From a virus: 38,045 bases of DNA. Within the stretch, counting starts at the first letter, position 1, and each line of letters opens with the position of its first letter. This document shows positions 20,531 through 35,897 of this stretch, in pieces. The position numbers and the translations under genes are program-made. Location: IMG/VR virus record IMGVR_UViG_3300037427_001300, positions 1 to 38,045 of that record; one strand, 5' to 3'. Below the pieces are notes generated by a model. That model had not been told where the DNA came from and searched no databases. It saw nothing but the letters and a program-made list of their open reading frames with translations.

Positions 20531-22309
20531 CTATTTTTCTATGGTATATATTTTTACTGGTTCAGACTTTCCTTTTACTAAGGCATCGTCTAAGTAAGTA
20601 TATTCATACCCATCAACTTGACTATATTCGGATATAATTAGATCCGTTTCATAAGTTTTACAACTACTTTCTAAGCGAGCAGCAAGATTAACTGCGTCCC
20701 CGATAACACTATAGTCAAAACGACTACTAGAACCCATATTGCCGACAACACACGGGCCAGAGTTGATTCCGACTCCCGTATTGATTTCAATGCTTCTTTC
20801 GGCCCTGAGAACATCATTCATTTCCTCTAATGCTACTCTCATTTCGATAGCAGCTTTGATTGCATTCTCTCTGTGGTTCGGATCATCTAAAGGTGCGTTC
20901 CAAAACGCCATTATACAATCTCCCATAAACTTATCTATAGTACCACCATGTTTTAAAATTATGTCAGACTGATTAGTTAGAAATATATTTATTAGCTCTA
21001 CCAGCCCTTCTGGGTCTTCTTTAAACTTCTCAGATATTGGAGTAAACCCTCTTATATCTGAAAACAAGAATGTCATTTCTCGTCGTTCGCCTCCTAGCCT
21101 TAAAAGTTTAGGATTATCCTGTAATTTCTTAACCATCCCTGGGTCAAGATAGTGCTCAAACTGTTTCTTAATTTGTTGTTTTAGCTTGAACTCCCTTAAA
21201 TAATTTGTAAAAGATGAAGCAGCCCAAATGATTACTGCAGCTACTATTCCAAAAGAAGGATCTAAAAGTATTTGTTCTGTAGTGAAAGCATTAAAGGTGT
21301 ACCAATAAGAACCTCCAATAGCCAGTATTAATGCGGGGACTGAAAAGTATACTTTAAAACTCAGTAGTAAAAGTATAAATAATCCACCTAACAAAGCTAA
21401 TAATTCTAAATCCTCTGCCCATTCAGGACGCGAAATATTGTTCCCTTGTGCTAAAGTAGAAAGTACAGAAGCTTGAATTTCATGCGGAGCTTTCAAACCT
21501 GCTGGAGTTGCTACTAAAGTGGAAGCACCCTTTGCTGTCACTCCTATTATAGCTGCGACGTTAGGCTGAGGACTCTGAAAGTATTCGATTGCAGATACTT
21601 CTTTGAACTTGGTATTCCAGTTTACCCAGATTCTTGCTTGAGAATCTGTTTTTATAATATCGAAGTTCTGTATCTTTAAAGCTTCTACTCCAATACTATT
21701 AGTTTTTATAGCGTAAGAAGGAGCTTGTGCCAGGTTTCTAAGAAGTTCCATGGAAAAGGAAGGGTACAAAGTATTGTTTATGTTAAAAACTAGTGGTACT
21801 CTTCTTACCAACCCGTCTAATTCATATGCTGTAGAAGTAATTCCATTACCAACAGCACTCTTCTCTATCTCTTCTACGTTATTTAATACTCCGTCAAAAG
21901 GAGTCAAGTAGGGTAGTGGGTCTTCTCCAATAGAAGCAGTACCAACATGAGGGGGCTTTCCTCCAATCTTTGAGTCTGTTGCTGCAGTAGCTACTACTAC
22001 AGAAGTCATACAATCTGAGAAATCTTTATCAGTATCGTATCTGTCTTTTTCTGGAAACAGTACAGTTACTCCAGTTACATTTGAACCAAGTAAACTACAA
22101 AAAGTATTGCGAGGCCAAGGCCATTGACCTATCTTATTTAAGCTTTCATCGTCTATAGATACAAGAGTTATGATCTCAGACTCTGTAGCCTCTATAGTTG
22201 ATATGAAATAGTCAAAAGTCTTTAGTCTTAGTACTTCAACAGGATAGGGATCTAAACTTTTAATACCAACTAAAAGTCCAATGAGCCCTAATCCTATTAA
22301 CCATCTCAT
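20531..22309 (-). CDS. CHASE2-domain class III adenylate cyclase
   Basis: The 592-residue membrane protein has an N-terminal membrane anchor and an extracytoplasmic CHASE2 sensor (about residues 25-295, with VSIDDESLNKIGQWPWPR). Three transmembrane helices follow at about 302-366, then a helical linker and a class III cyclase domain (about 408-592). Catalytic positions are complete: metal Asp D418 (FSDIRGFT) and D464 (FMGD), adenine-specific K460 and D532 (FDYSVIGD), and N541 and R545 (NLAARLE). The K/D pair predicts ATP and cAMP rather than GTP. The gene overlaps the hydrolase stop by a few bases. A signal-responsive cyclase in a phage structural operon is very unusual; it may perturb host cAMP signalling or respond to periplasmic cues. 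Confidence 0.93.
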   Translation of the reverse strand: MRWLIGLGLIGLLVGIKSLDPYPVEVLRLKTFDYFISTIEATESEIITLVSIDDESLNKIGQWPWPRNTFCSLLGSNVTGVTVLFPEKDRYDTDKDFSDCMTSVVVATAATDSKIGGKPPHVGTASIGEDPLPYLTPFDGVLNNVEEIEKSAVGNGITSTAYELDGLVRRVPLVFNINNTLYPSFSMELLRNLAQAPSYAIKTNSIGVEALKIQNFDIIKTDSQARIWVNWNTKFKEVSAIEYFQSPQPNVAAIIGVTAKGASTLVATPAGLKAPHEIQASVLSTLAQGNNISRPEWAEDLELLALLGGLFILLLLSFKVYFSVPALILAIGGSYWYTFNAFTTEQILLDPSFGIVAAVIIWAASSFTNYLREFKLKQQIKKQFEHYLDPGMVKKLQDNPKLLRLGGERREMTFLFSDIRGFTPISEKFKEDPEGLVELINIFLTNQSDIILKHGGTIDKFMGDCIMAFWNAPLDDPNHRENAIKAAIEMRVALEEMNDVLRAERSIEINTGVGINSGPCVVGNMGSSSRFDYSVIGDAVNLAARLESSCKTYETDLIISEYSQVDGYEYTYLDDALVKGKSEPVKIYTIEK

Positions 22310-29020: not shown

Positions 29021-29306
29021 ACCGTACTTCCGTCTCTAGTTTATGTTTAAAGTCCTCGGTTTTAGAACCTTCCCACTTTCCCTTAAAAGTGAAAGATCCT
29101 CGTTTTATCTTATACCCTAACTCGGAGGAGTATCCCTCAGTTCGTGGGCCTGCTTCAATATAAAAATTTTTTTCAGTCTTATATCCTAATCTAAGATGAT
29201 GTATGTCTTCTTTAGATAGGAACTTGTATTCATTTTTATATTCTATATAGGGTGCCGCGAAGGCGGCTGGTGAGGTAAAAAGTATCAGGGCAATGAGTAC
29301 TCTCAA
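29010..29306 (-). CDS. Small secreted protein, possible outer-membrane strand protein
   Basis: The 98-residue protein starts with TTG at 29306; AAGGAG seven bases upstream decides this start. A signal peptide (MRVLIALILFTSPAAFAAPY) precedes an amphipathic, Lys/Glu/Tyr-rich region (KFLSKEDIHHLRLGYKTEKN, then TFKGKWEGSKTEDFKHKLET) reading as beta hairpins with alternating polar and aromatic residues and ending in EVRYEL. It may be a small barrel or a periplasmic lipid-binding protein. It is the first gene of the minus-strand late block, with an extended -10 upstream. Function unknown. Confidence 0.6.
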   Translation of the reverse strand: MRVLIALILFTSPAAFAAPYIEYKNEYKFLSKEDIHHLRLGYKTEKNFYIEAGPRTEGYSSELGYKIKRGSFTFKGKWEGSKTEDFKHKLETEVRYEL

Positions 29307-29452
29307 TTAAGCTCTCCTTAAAATAAAACTTGAAATCTTATTCAATTTCATGTATATTATATCACCCTAATGTTACAGTTTTATGACATAACGTGTCAAA
29401 ATTCTCATTATTTTTCTTTTTCAAAAATTCCCAAGTTGTACGTGAAAGGGAC

Positions 29453-29477
29453 GCCCGCGCGAAGCGCGGCTGTCAAG
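29453..29477 (+). repeat. Left inverted repeat of the GC-rich cassette
   Basis: The 25 bases begin GCCCGCGCGAAGCGCG and end in GTCAAG. The reverse complement of 32657-32681 matches this at 23 of 25 positions. The two copies face each other across 3.2 kb and enclose the GC-rich gene block. They contain a palindromic GCGCGAAGCGCG core. Confidence 0.75.
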
Positions 29478-29490
29478 TCAATGAACCGCC

Positions 29491-29519
29491 CCGTTTGTTA
29501 TAAGCATATAACTAAACGG
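29491..29519 (+). promoter_or_regulatory. Operator-like dyad abutting a promoter
   Basis: CCGTTTGTTATA and TATAACTAAACGG form a 12-13 bp dyad around AGCA, with one extra T. It ends two bases before the -35 box of the promoter at 29522. A second copy of the core (GTTATAAGC-TATA) lies in the same place before the promoter at 29974, so both are probably under one regulator. Confidence 0.7.
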
Positions 29520-29521
29520 TC

Positions 29522-29551
29522 TTGACAAGAAGGTGATGCATCCCTTATAAT
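29522..29551 (+). promoter_or_regulatory. Sigma70-type promoter, first plus-strand gene
   Basis: TTGACA (29522-29527) and TATAAT (29546-29551) have an 18-base spacer. The start is near 29558, about 22 bases before the ATG of the 54-residue gene. Confidence 0.85.
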
Positions 29552-29579
29552 GGTTACATAAATTAATCGAGGACCGACT

Positions 29580-29744
29580 ATGACCGACTACGTAATCAAG
29601 ACCAAGCAAGGCGCGCTCATCTGCCGCGTTGAGGCTGGCTCAGGCGATGCCGCTGTAAAGCGCGCACGTCAGGCTGGCTATAACGTGATCACTGGCTGCA
29701 CTATCCAAGCTATGGACGGAGGCAAGCAATATGAAATCATTTAA
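29580..29744 (+). CDS. 54-residue small protein
   Basis: The ATG at 29580 has GAGG eight bases upstream and the frame ends with TAA at 29744. The peptide (MTDYVIKTKQGALICRVEAG, then DAAVKRARQAGYNVITG) reads as a compact alpha/beta unit with no membrane span. It is the first gene after the promoter at 29522 and overlaps the start of the next. It has GC-rich codons like the rest of the cassette. Function unknown. Confidence 0.65.
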   Translation: MTDYVIKTKQGALICRVEAGSGDAAVKRARQAGYNVITGCTIQAMDGGKQYEII

Positions 29745-29946
29745 CAAGATTGCTAAAACGTGCGGCGCTTTGTTAGGCGCTGCATTCTGGGCGCTGATGT
29801 GTTGGGGCATGGCGTACACTGGCTTGTTATTCGTAACATTCGAGGGTGCGGTTTGGCTCAATCAAATCATGGGATATGGTATGATGTTCATAGCGTTTTG
29901 CATGACTACCTTGTTATTCCTAATAGCATGGACGAAGCGGCCATAA
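29731..29946 (+). CDS. Small membrane protein (two helices)
   Basis: The 71-residue protein starts at ATG 29731, with GGAGG eight bases upstream inside the previous gene. Two hydrophobic helices (ALLGAAFWALMCWGMAYTGL, LNQIMGYGMMFIAFCMTTLL) and a short basic end (WTKRP) are visible. Two-span, 70-80 residue phage proteins often affect the host membrane, as holins or superinfection-exclusion proteins, but nothing selects a role. Confidence 0.65.
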   Translation: MKSFNKIAKTCGALLGAAFWALMCWGMAYTGLLFVTFEGAVWLNQIMGYGMMFIAFCMTTLLFLIAWTKRP

Positions 29947-29963
29947 GGTTATAAGCTTATACC
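29947..29963 (+). promoter_or_regulatory. Second operator-like dyad
   Basis: GGTTATAAGCTTATACC has a perfect 12-base TATAAGCTTATA core. It lies ten bases before the TTGACA at 29974, the same spacing as the copy at 29491. The bases after each (C-AAACGGT) are shared as well. Confidence 0.7.
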
Positions 29964-29973
29964 AAAACGGTAT

Positions 29974-30002
29974 TTGACACCAGCCCGATATTTTGAGATA
30001 AT
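29974..30002 (+). promoter_or_regulatory. Sigma70-type promoter of the first paralogue gene
   Basis: TTGACA (29974-29979) and GATAAT (29997-30002) are 17 bases apart. The start lies near 30009, about 24 bases before ATG 30033. Confidence 0.82.
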
Positions 30003-30032
30003 ACGCACTTAACTTAACTAACGGAGACTCTT

Positions 30033-32863: not shown

Positions 32864-33023
32864 AGTAGTGGACCAACGAAGTAGTAAAATTACGAAGGCG
32901 CGCCGATCATACAGTAGTGCAACAACGATGTCAAGAAAAATTTTAAGGATTGGTGAAATTAAATTAAGCGCCGAAGTCCGCAGTAGTAAATCAACGGCGC
33001 CGACCGCAGTAGTAAATCAACGA
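32864..33023 (+). repeat. Five 16-bp iterons, consensus AGTAGTnnAnCAACGA
   Basis: Copies start at 32864, 32880, 32913, 32982 and 33008. The first two are directly tandem; the last two are 26 bp apart and identical over AGTAGTAAATCAACG, preceded by GCGCCGA-(AGT)-CCGC. The fifth base onward varies most in the middle. Copy 3 fills exactly the spacer between the -35 and -10 boxes of the minus-strand promoter at 32906-32934. Iterons of this kind bind initiators or repressors. Confidence 0.75.
32906..32934 (-). promoter_or_regulatory. Minus-strand promoter overlapping iteron 3
   Basis: On the minus strand TTGACA (32934-32929) and TATGAT (32911-32906) are 17 bases apart. The spacer is iteron 3. Nothing codes on the minus strand downstream, so the product would be a small RNA; an iteron-binding protein would block it. 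Confidence 0.7.
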
Positions 33024-33045
33024 AGGTAAAATTGCGCGGGCGCCG

Positions 33046-33763: not shown

Positions 33764-33792
33764 TTGACAACTTCCTTAAAATGCCTCATAAT
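33764..33792 (+). promoter_or_regulatory. Sigma70-type promoter of paralogue 2
   Basis: TTGACA (33764-33769) and CATAAT (33787-33792) are 17 bases apart. It lies right after the previous gene's stop. The spacer CTTCCTTAAAATGCCT resembles that of the promoter at 33233. Confidence 0.85.
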
Positions 33793-33850: not shown

Positions 33851-34183
33851 ATGACCGACACACAAGTTAAGAACTACACTGACGAAATGGTTGTTTCCAT
33901 GGTCGATCAGTACACCGCAACCCCGACTCGCGCAACAGTTGAAGCGCTAGCAGAAGAGTTCGGGAAGTCAGCACGAAGCATCATAGCGAAGTTATCACGC
34001 GAAGGTGTCTACGTAGCGCAACCTAAGACCACCAAATCTGGTATGCCAATCGTTCGCAAGTCGGACATTGTAGGAAGGATTGCAGGACACCTCGGTGTCG
34101 AGTTGGAATCTCCAACTTTGGTCAAAGCGTCTAAAATCGACCTTCTTATGCTCGAAGACGCTATTATTAAAGCTACTTCGTAG
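33851..34183 (+). CDS. Small DNA-binding-like protein, paralogue 2 of 3
   Basis: The ATG at 33851 (SD GGAG seven bases upstream) gives 110 residues; an in-frame ATG at 33800 would place the start at the transcript's first base. NYTDEMVVSMVDQY, TRATVEALAEEFGKSARSII and AKLSREGVY mirror the genes at 30033 and 36608. The predicted helix-turn-helix is followed by a basic linker (KTTKSGMPIVRKSDI) and a second helical unit. The three paralogues suggest a family of phage regulators or DNA-binding proteins. A hairpin (34193-34217) follows the gene. Confidence 0.72.
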   Translation: MTDTQVKNYTDEMVVSMVDQYTATPTRATVEALAEEFGKSARSIIAKLSREGVYVAQPKTTKSGMPIVRKSDIVGRIAGHLGVELESPTLVKASKIDLLMLEDAIIKATS

Positions 34184-34192
34184 TTGCGACCC

Positions 34193-34217
34193 AAGCCCTC
34201 GGGGATATAGAGGGCTT
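34193..34217 (+). terminator. Hairpin after paralogue 2
   Basis: AAGCCCTC (34193-34200) and GAGGGCTT (34210-34217) form an 8-bp stem with a nine-base loop. There is no immediate T run, so it may be an attenuator or the end of the mRNA rather than a strict terminator. Confidence 0.5.
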
Positions 34218-34244
34218 ACCAGAAAAGGTATTGTTTTCGCAAAT

Positions 34245-34253
34245 TGGTATAAT
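34245..34253 (+). promoter_or_regulatory. Extended -10 promoter of the large structured RNA
   Basis: TGGTATAAT (34245-34253) is a consensus extended -10. No good -35 is found 17 bases upstream (AAGGTA). Transcription should start near 34260. Confidence 0.65.
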
Positions 34254-35106
34254 TCCTATGTGACAGTATCTTTTCTAGTACGATAGAGTACAGTAGGGAA
34301 GATCGGGCGTGTGAATATATACACACATATGTCAATAAAGATCGGGGAGAAGATAAAAGTGCCTAACCCCAGCCCTACATTAGTAACCTTGGTGAGCTGC
34401 ACGTAAGTGTCGCGCGTCAGAGATGGCAAAGTCAAGGCTAATGGGCATTAGTAAGAAATCTAAGTCCCAGCGACAAATAGGTATGGTACAGATAGGGGCA
34501 ACAGATAACACCTGTATAATCAACGGAAAACTGTAGCCTGAGAGTACCCTTCCTCCCGTCCTAGGCGCGAGATGGACTACACGAGGCTAATCACCCCGGC
34601 GTGGTGGCCATACCGAAAAAGGGAGCTATATACTACTCGCCGAAGGCTAACCTCAAAAGAAGTAGTAGTATATCGACGGAGGCGTTGTGAGAATAAGTCC
34701 CGACCTGTCAAAGGGCCGCAGCTTAAAACGGGCAATCCGACTCACTTAGCGGTGAGGAGTCCTCAGCTTCGATGTTTAGTAGTACAATAACTACTCGTGA
34801 ATGGTACGGCTGACTACGTTAATCAGTACCTGACCTTACTGGGATTACAGTTCGAACAAAAGAGGTCGCAGGACACGGTACCCTGCATCAACGAATAAAA
34901 GGAGAAACCCTAGCTTTAGCAGACGTTACATATTGGTTGATAACCGAGTAGCAGCATCGACTAGGTAGGTTATATGTTTTTAATCACGATATATCCTCAG
35001 TATTTCCCAACATTAGTTGGAAGCATACGAAAAAATCGAATAGAGTCGGGCGATTATCATAAAGTGATCCATGCCTTATCAGCATGAGGAACTGGGGTAA
35101 TCATTC

Positions 35107-35132
35107 AGTAGGTTGGTGGGGCCTACTGCCAA
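35107..35132 (+). ncRNA. Possible H-type pseudoknot in the structured RNA
   Basis: AGTAGG (35107-35112) pairs with CCTACT (35122-35127), and TTGG (35113-35116) in the loop can pair with CCAA (35129-35132). The short first loop may strain the fold; a simple hairpin is the alternative. Confidence 0.35.
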
Positions 35133-35138
35133 CTAGTT

Positions 35139-35176
35139 AGGTGGGTAATGCACCTCCGGCTTTCGGGTCGGGGGTG
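35139..35176 (+). promoter_or_regulatory. Mutually exclusive hairpins before the 57-residue gene
   Basis: CACCT (35151-35155) can pair with AGGTG (35139-35143) or with the 3' arm of the 11-bp UUCG hairpin (35151-35176). The second hairpin ends nine bases before the Shine-Dalgarno of the gene at 35197. The arrangement could act as a switch or simply close the large RNA. Confidence 0.4.
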
Positions 35177-35196
35177 TTTCCACGAAAGGAGTACAA

Positions 35197-35370
35197 ATGC
35201 GAGAATATAAAGTAGAAGTCCTAGAAACATACGAGCGAGTGAGACGAATGACGCTAAAAGCAGGTAATGAGAAACTCTTAGAAGAACGACTCAAAGACAT
35301 GGTTGAAGCTCAACGCCGCCGACTCGGAATGGATGAAGGCGAACTACAGATACTCGAAGTATCTGATTAG
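35197..35370 (+). CDS. 57-residue acidic-basic helical protein
   Basis: An ATG at 35197, with AAAGGAG six bases upstream, starts a 57-residue frame that ends with TAG at 35370. Sequence MREYKVEVLETYERVRRMTL and EERLKDMVEAQRRRLGMDEG reads as a strand and a long charged helix, a common layout of small nucleic-acid-associated proteins. It follows the structured RNA directly and is followed by a terminator, so RNA and protein probably share a transcript. Function unknown; it might bind the RNA. Confidence 0.7.
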   Translation: MREYKVEVLETYERVRRMTLKAGNEKLLEERLKDMVEAQRRRLGMDEGELQILEVSD

Positions 35371-35397
35371 TGGGAAAATAACACAAACTTTAAGGGA

Positions 35398-35421
35398 GGG
35401 TTGCTTAGGCAGCCCTTTTTT
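35398..35421 (+). terminator. Rho-independent terminator
   Basis: GGGTTGC (35398-35404) and GCAGCCC (35409-35415) pair as seven base pairs around a TTAG loop, followed by TTTTTT. It closes the RNA/57-residue transcript. Confidence 0.9.
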
Positions 35422-35426
35422 ATTTC

Positions 35427-35456
35427 TTGACAAAATACCTCAAATATTGCTATAAT
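35427..35456 (+). promoter_or_regulatory. Sigma70-type promoter of the 35502 gene
   Basis: TTGACA (35427-35432) and TATAAT (35451-35456) have an 18-base spacer containing CCTCAAATA. It begins six bases after the terminator's T run. Confidence 0.88.
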
Positions 35457-35501
35457 ACACTTTCAAAAATTAATCTAACTTTTTTATAAGGAAAATTTTG
35501 T

Positions 35502-35897
35502 ATGGCTGATAAAGTAATAGACTTCCAAGCCGCTAAAGAGCGAATACAATCTTCCAACCTAAAAGATGACGAGTTCAGTATCGAAAACGAAATCAAATGG
35601 GTGGAAGATCAGTTGGATATCGCTGACATAGAGCTTGATGATGTTACAGCTAGTATGGAAGAGTTGACTCAGTATATTCTTGAGTTGACAAACTACATGG
35701 CTGGCATTTCTGTCGCCTTGAGTATAAGGGAGTCAGGAGTGGACGACTGGATGGATGCTCTAAAAGAACAACGTCTAGGAATGAATAGGGAGCTAGTAGA
35801 GGAGGAAGTAGCCGTTCAATTTGAATTAGATTTGGGAGAGGACGAAGAACCTCTAATATTTGATTTTATACCGGAGTTCGATCTGGATGATAATTAA
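35502..35897 (+). CDS. 131-residue acidic protein
   Basis: ATG at 35502 has AAGGA nine bases upstream. The protein is highly acidic and helical (NEIKWVEDQLDIADIELDDV, EELTQYILELTNYMAGISVA), with a Met/Glu-rich coiled-coil centre and an acidic end (FELDLGEDEEPLIFDFIPEF). No motif of known function was found. Its acidity resembles small phage inhibitors that mimic nucleic acid, but that is speculation. Its stop lies just before the next gene. Confidence 0.68.
   Translation: MADKVIDFQAAKERIQSSNLKDDEFSIENEIKWVEDQLDIADIELDDVTASMEELTQYILELTNYMAGISVALSIRESGVDDWMDALKEQRLGMNRELVEEEVAVQFELDLGEDEEPLIFDFIPEFDLDDN

Follow-up and report, generated by a model that had tools for sequence, protein, structure and literature searches.

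The locus lies in IMG/VR virus record IMGVR_UViG_3300037427_001300, which was analysed as one whole stretch of 38,045 bp (the window). The phage looks aquatic in origin, judging from its relatives and not from the sample record; for example, a protein encoded at 20531-22309 is 43% identical to an adenylate/guanylate cyclase-like protein of Pelagibacter phage HTVC008M. Leftward and rightward genes diverge at 29300-30030, where the GC skew also turns. A gene-poor stretch at 32875-33026, upstream of the transcription unit considered here, contains repeats with AGTAGTAAA..CGAAGG.

About 1 kb (34184-35196) separates the stop of a D5-like HTH gene (34183) from the start of a 57-aa ORF (35197). The initial annotation had described this interval as free of genes, and no convincing gene was found in it. 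The only ORFs of more than 60 aa that touch it are frames entering from the upstream gene and a single 72-aa ORF (34572-34790). The latter was rejected as a gene because a 1-nt indel breaks its frame in the closest relative, L002 (related loci carry L numbers). The features of the region are collected in Table 1.

Table 1. Features of the transcription unit, of the RNA within it and of the gene that follows (window coordinates).
Feature	Position	Strand	Remarks
Sigma70-like promoter TTGACA-N17-CATAAT	33764..33792	+	11/12 consensus match; probable start of the unit
D5-like DNA-binding (HTH) protein gene	33851..34183	+	Real gene, directly upstream of the RNA
M0 hairpin AAGCCCUC/GAGGGCUU, GGGG loop	34187..34217	+	Directly follows the HTH stop; also conserved in L002, L055 and, in two copies, L003
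M1, 15-bp hairpin, loop CGNAAAUU-NN-UAUNAUU-NN-UAUG	34221..34276	+	Inner 2 bp of the loop covary
M2, three-way junction P1/P2/P3, joining strand A(G/A)UAAAGAU, P2-loop/P3-loop pseudoknot	34292..34382	+	48.9 bits
Branched arm	34480..34614	+	Predicted from window and L002; several helices with double changes
Long stem (34628/34664 of the initial annotation)	34628..34673	+	L002 lacks 3 nt in each arm
Hairpin CUCAC/GUGAG	34730..34763	+	CCCAC/GUGGG in L002 (change at 34742-34755)
107-nt block identical in L002	34767..34873	+	Alignment overall 74%; predicted hairpins 34778-34795 and 34803-34830
Predicted stem CCUAG..CUAGG, then conserved AGGUUAUAUGU	34909..34965	+	Common to L003
12-bp UUCG hairpin	35150..35177	+	Just upstream of the RBS of the 57-aa ORF; kept in L002 and L003
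57-aa ORF	35197..35370	+	Conserved at the protein level in three relatives; same transcription unit; has a ribosome-binding site
Intrinsic terminator of the unit	35391..35422	+	
Promoter of the next gene	35427..35456	+	12/12 consensus match
Next gene	35502..35897		Marks the syntenic site downstream of M2 RNAs among relatives

The RNA of the window has no promoter of its own, and an ORF follows it. The initial annotation had placed an extended -10 promoter at 34245 (TGGTATAAT); this sequence proved instead to be the loop core of M1, a conserved and covarying hairpin. The HTH gene directly precedes the RNA, on its 5' side, in the window, L002, L003, L055 and L184, so that one promoter would serve both. 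A promoter resembling that of the window is found 489-669 nt before M2 in L002, L003 and L055. The RNA would thus be made as the 3' part of the HTH gene transcript (33.80-35.42 kb) and perhaps cut out afterwards.

Single-sequence folding energy of 34184-35196 was unexceptional (+ strand, z -1.6, with 1/20 shuffles as good; - strand, z -0.7), so the density of hairpins alone would not have been evidence for an RNA. Of the dense stable helices described earlier, the named stems exist and are kept in L002, but the energy of the fold is ordinary. Both stems singled out at that time are present. The 10-bp stem has matching deletions in its two arms in L002, and the UUCG hairpin, given as 11 bp at 35151-35176, is one pair longer.

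The evidence came from comparison with relatives. L002 was found by a scan with the upstream HTH protein and contains the whole stretch at about 75-80% identity. L003 and L055 are syntenic relatives with gene-poor stretches of similar size, that of L055 carrying a 75-aa ORF. The alignment of the window with L002 has paired changes throughout. RNAalifold scored better on it than on column shuffles in all six alignment windows (z -1.6 to -4.5); on flanking, mostly coding DNA, z ranged from +0.3 to -2.5 and was mostly near zero. The fold of 34383-35196 rests mainly on this one pairwise comparison, since only L002 aligns well over its full length. A search for further relatives of the 3' half of the RNA gave only L002, L003 and L055, and only these three have in common with the window the M1-M2 layout between the HTH gene and the 57-aa ORF.

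Copies of M0 were located in L003 (1204-1234 and about 1395-1432) and in L055 (6350-6387). Its GGGG loop could pair with the preceding ACCC as a pseudoknot. The 107-nt block has a structural homologue in L003, recognized by eye. L003 also contains a duplicated hairpin module, GUCUGAUAGU..ACUAUCCGUGA(A/G)A (about 1603-1640 and 1728-1765), whose likely single homologue in the window is near 34775-34802. At 1350-1379 (partner 1211-1217), with GGCCUCC upstream, L003 has a fragment that resembles a tRNA or tmRNA 3' end, with T-arm, acceptor strand and CCA tail; neither ARAGORN nor Rfam called it.

M1, whose loop reads ATTGGTATAATTCCTATG in the window, is paired at 15/15 positions of its stem in four phages (window, L002, L003 and L055), with double changes at 12 of the 15. 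When strands were swapped between phages, pairing fell to 6-13 of 15. In other RNAs, the two inner pairs are GG/CC, GC/GC, GU/AC or AC/GU, and when the motif was searched without a pairing requirement, every instance near M2 in those RNAs was paired. This hairpin with its covarying 2-bp core is one of the characters by which members of the proposed M1/M2 family are recognized, and the window has it. M1 is present in part of the family, and the scans did not find it in several M2 RNAs. The scan of viral contigs found the M1 loop in further non-coding contexts. At L084 (5730-5800), it caps a lone hairpin that precedes a run of T, so that M1 may also exist by itself as a small RNA or a terminator. 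At L079, L080, L109 and L124, a long gene-poor stretch begins with M1, has no detectable M2 and is possibly another large RNA; tRNA genes lie some kilobases from M1 in L080, L109 and L124. Bacterial genomes were rejected as a source of M1: the 19 contig matches are about the number expected by chance, and no M1-like hairpin was present in the flanking sequence inspected.

Right after M1, the window reads GGGAAG..GGG..-hairpin-..AAUAAAGAU..., which is a divergent instance of M2, a module recurring in about 40 other viral contigs. A model of M2, built from a training set that excluded the window, L002 and L055, matched the window with E 8e-13 (filters off) or 1.5e-11, the second-best match in the window being 12.8 bits; L002 matched with 45.5 bits and L055 with 51.5 bits. 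An alignment of 22 sequences supports P1-P3, a further stem that extends P2, and pseudoknot pairing of the internal loop of P2 with the loop of P3. Over these sequences, the 17 pairs are standard in 98.7% of pair cells and have double changes in 13 cases. The covariation score, pseudoknot included, was 0.595 vs 0.186 when shuffled and at most 0.132 when slid. Between the window and L002, GUGUG/CACAC becomes GCGGG/CUCGC. In the window itself, the junction was identified by the model match and the pseudoknot (GGG with GCCU) by eye only. Since an exact pattern was used to collect these sequences at first, the constancy of GAUAAGG-AGUAAAGAU among them partly reflects the search. A re-scan that left the joining strand free returned mostly the same contigs. 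Among those that it added, one is a new member whose joining strand resembles that of the rest, and the other six contained no credible match. Genomes of the class of G013 (the genome of L145, Kordiimonadaceae) were searched for M2 by pattern (385) and by model (190). The sole match, L224 (30.8 bits), was rejected because it overlaps ORFs and breaks pairs.

The comparison for compensatory changes proposed in the initial annotation thus found paired changes that keep the helices in L002, in M1 and in M2. Such changes show, at the level of aligned sequences, that the RNA is under structural selection, and 34184-35196 almost certainly encodes a real structured RNA. The earlier suggestion of a large ornate phage RNA, possibly of a new class, is borne out by this covariation and by a module recurring in dozens of phages. 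M2 is single-copy (one per record in 12/12 records searched whole), and a single non-coding copy per record would also suit a DNA-level element with cruciform potential, such as an origin or a packaging or recombination site. That reading is hardly credible: many pairs are kept as G-U (M1 positions 8, 11 and 15 in the window), which are mispairs on the other strand, and transcription signals bracket the gene.

Known families were searched with Rfam. On 34000-35600, with E up to 5, no family was found and only four sub-threshold chance matches were returned. GOLLD, ROOL, HEARO and OLE gave no match at permissive thresholds in the window, L002, L003, L055, L079 or L080. Because nothing matches Rfam, membership of these four families, of which the initial annotation had put forward GOLLD and ROOL as possible identities and all four as models to search, is unsupported. 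Those M2 loci that were scanned gave only tmRNA and tRNA matches, all outside the M2 module. Permuted tmRNA (RF04321) was rejected as an identity for the window RNA: a tRNA-like domain with T-arm/CCA and a tag frame were not found, and ARAGORN and Rfam were negative in the window. It is thus very unlikely that the RNA is a diverged GOLLD, ROOL, HEARO, OLE or permuted tmRNA, even though its length and phage location are similar, GOLLD and ROOL also occur near tRNA islands (PMC12286853) and the T-arm/acceptor/CCA-like fragment of L003 lies in the same region. Among cultured phages, no relative of the HTH gene was found, and the RNAs gave only short spurious or tmRNA matches. A literature search that covered open papers, but not subscription papers or most preprints, gave no description of M1 or M2. 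Being absent from both Rfam and the open papers covered, the M1/M2 RNA very probably represents an undescribed family.

Most relatives encode the M2-bearing RNA as a separate gene, about 260-760 nt long, that has its own promoter and terminator and, in the majority of cases, lacks a convincing ORF. Where enough flanking sequence was available, most members have a strong sigma70-like promoter whose end is 9-21 nt before M2 and an intrinsic terminator 124-745 nt after it. Where it could be read, the gene after the RNA is the counterpart of the next gene of the window and has its own promoter; this synteny, a further character of the family that the window has, was read only in members in which a terminator was found. 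The order of the modules varies: M1-M2 in the window, L002, L003, L055 and the L103 group, and M2-M1 in L153, L156, L163, L165, L179 and L190. In L161 and L182, M2 is at the 3' end of the RNA instead. No conserved, plausibly initiated ORF was found in 12 of the 14 RNAs examined, the other two carrying an ORF of ~50 aa with an RBS. ORFs of this kind follow M2 in L165, L167 and the L103 group. A 66-aa ATG frame in L163 is not kept in its relatives.

These ORFs bear on a cis-acting role, in which M2 would be the aptamer of a leader or riboswitch-like element controlling the downstream 57-aa ORF or the 3' end of the HTH transcript. The arrangement of the window is suggestive, the RNA being flanked by the HTH gene and by a real, RBS-bearing ORF in a single unit that has no internal promoter, and the conserved joining strands and pseudoknot of M2 look aptamer-like. 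Such control is nevertheless unlikely. No such ORF lies between promoter and terminator in most M2 genes examined (among them L153, L154, L161, L164, L172, L179 and L183), the gene after the RNA has its own promoter, and ~1 kb far exceeds the usual leaders. Action of the M1/M2 RNA in trans is instead reasonably likely, given the stand-alone M2 members.

Permuted tmRNA was present in 21 of 44 M2 loci vs 0 of 77 HTH loci lacking M2, a difference that is indicative only, many loci being close relatives. Among the same 44 loci, tRNA-Trp occurred nine times and tRNA-Cys five times. In all, 25 of the 44 have tRNAs or permuted tmRNA; ARAGORN called none in the window, whose record may be a fragment. 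This close linkage, together with the compact pseudoknotted junction formed by M2, might suggest a processing element or ribozyme acting on phage tRNA/tmRNA precursors. We consider this improbable, as in many members M2 is transcribed apart from the tmRNA, between a promoter and a terminator of its own, no Rfam ribozyme matches, and no tRNA or tmRNA was called in the window record itself. The function that we infer as the most likely, because many relatives keep the RNA beside permuted tmRNA and tRNA-Trp/Cys genes, is a role in translation or ribosome handling during infection. It is a tentative guess from linkage, rather less than an even chance.

Taken together, 34184-35196 is somewhat likely to be a ~1-kb noncoding RNA that acts in trans and is the long form within a new family of phage RNAs, a judgement that leaves any role in translation aside. 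M2 would be the conserved functional core, perhaps one at which a partner binds, and M1 an accessory module that can be placed before or after M2. More speculatively, and with considerable doubt, the M1/M2 RNAs may be a new modular phage RNA machine, rearranged in order, that cooperates with phage-encoded tmRNA and tRNAs, taking over translation or protecting it during infection; the 1-kb form of the window would be the most elaborate. To our knowledge, if ribosomes, introns and RNase P are set aside, very few RNAs are as large and as structured as this one; they include GOLLD and ROOL, two phage RNAs of unknown function. The M1/M2 family would be a third from phages, independent of these two. 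With its defined conserved core, its short and long forms and its link to permuted tmRNA, it would offer a tractable way into the role of such RNAs. M2 (~90 nt) is small enough for structure determination and pull-downs.

By size and setting, GOLLD and ROOL appear to be the nearest analogues, a likeness that does not make the M1/M2 RNA a member of either. Both are large multi-branched noncoding RNAs of phages and prophages, often located by tRNA genes, with pseudoknots, with conserved and variable parts and with unknown function (PMC12286853). The M1/M2 RNA is likewise large, multi-branched, phage-borne, noncoding and pseudoknotted; tRNA or tmRNA genes lie near it in part of the related loci, and none is called in the window. 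The likeness is one of size and setting, homo-oligomeric RNA nanocages being a further character of GOLLD and ROOL. Unlike them, it has no Rfam match and has conserved modules of its own, and its relatives are mostly 260-760 nt long and linked to permuted tmRNA. The permuted tmRNA of marine phages (RF04321), found in Melnitz and in Pelagibacter phage Mosig (PMC9004378), is also a phage-encoded structured RNA and belongs to the same gene cluster in many relatives, whereas the M2 RNA is a separate neighbouring gene with no tag ORF and no detected tRNA-like domain, and the window has no tmRNA match. With riboswitch aptamers and structured leaders, M2 has in common a three-way junction, a pseudoknot and conserved joining strands; it differs from them in matching no known aptamer and, in most members examined, in having no downstream ORF in its transcript.
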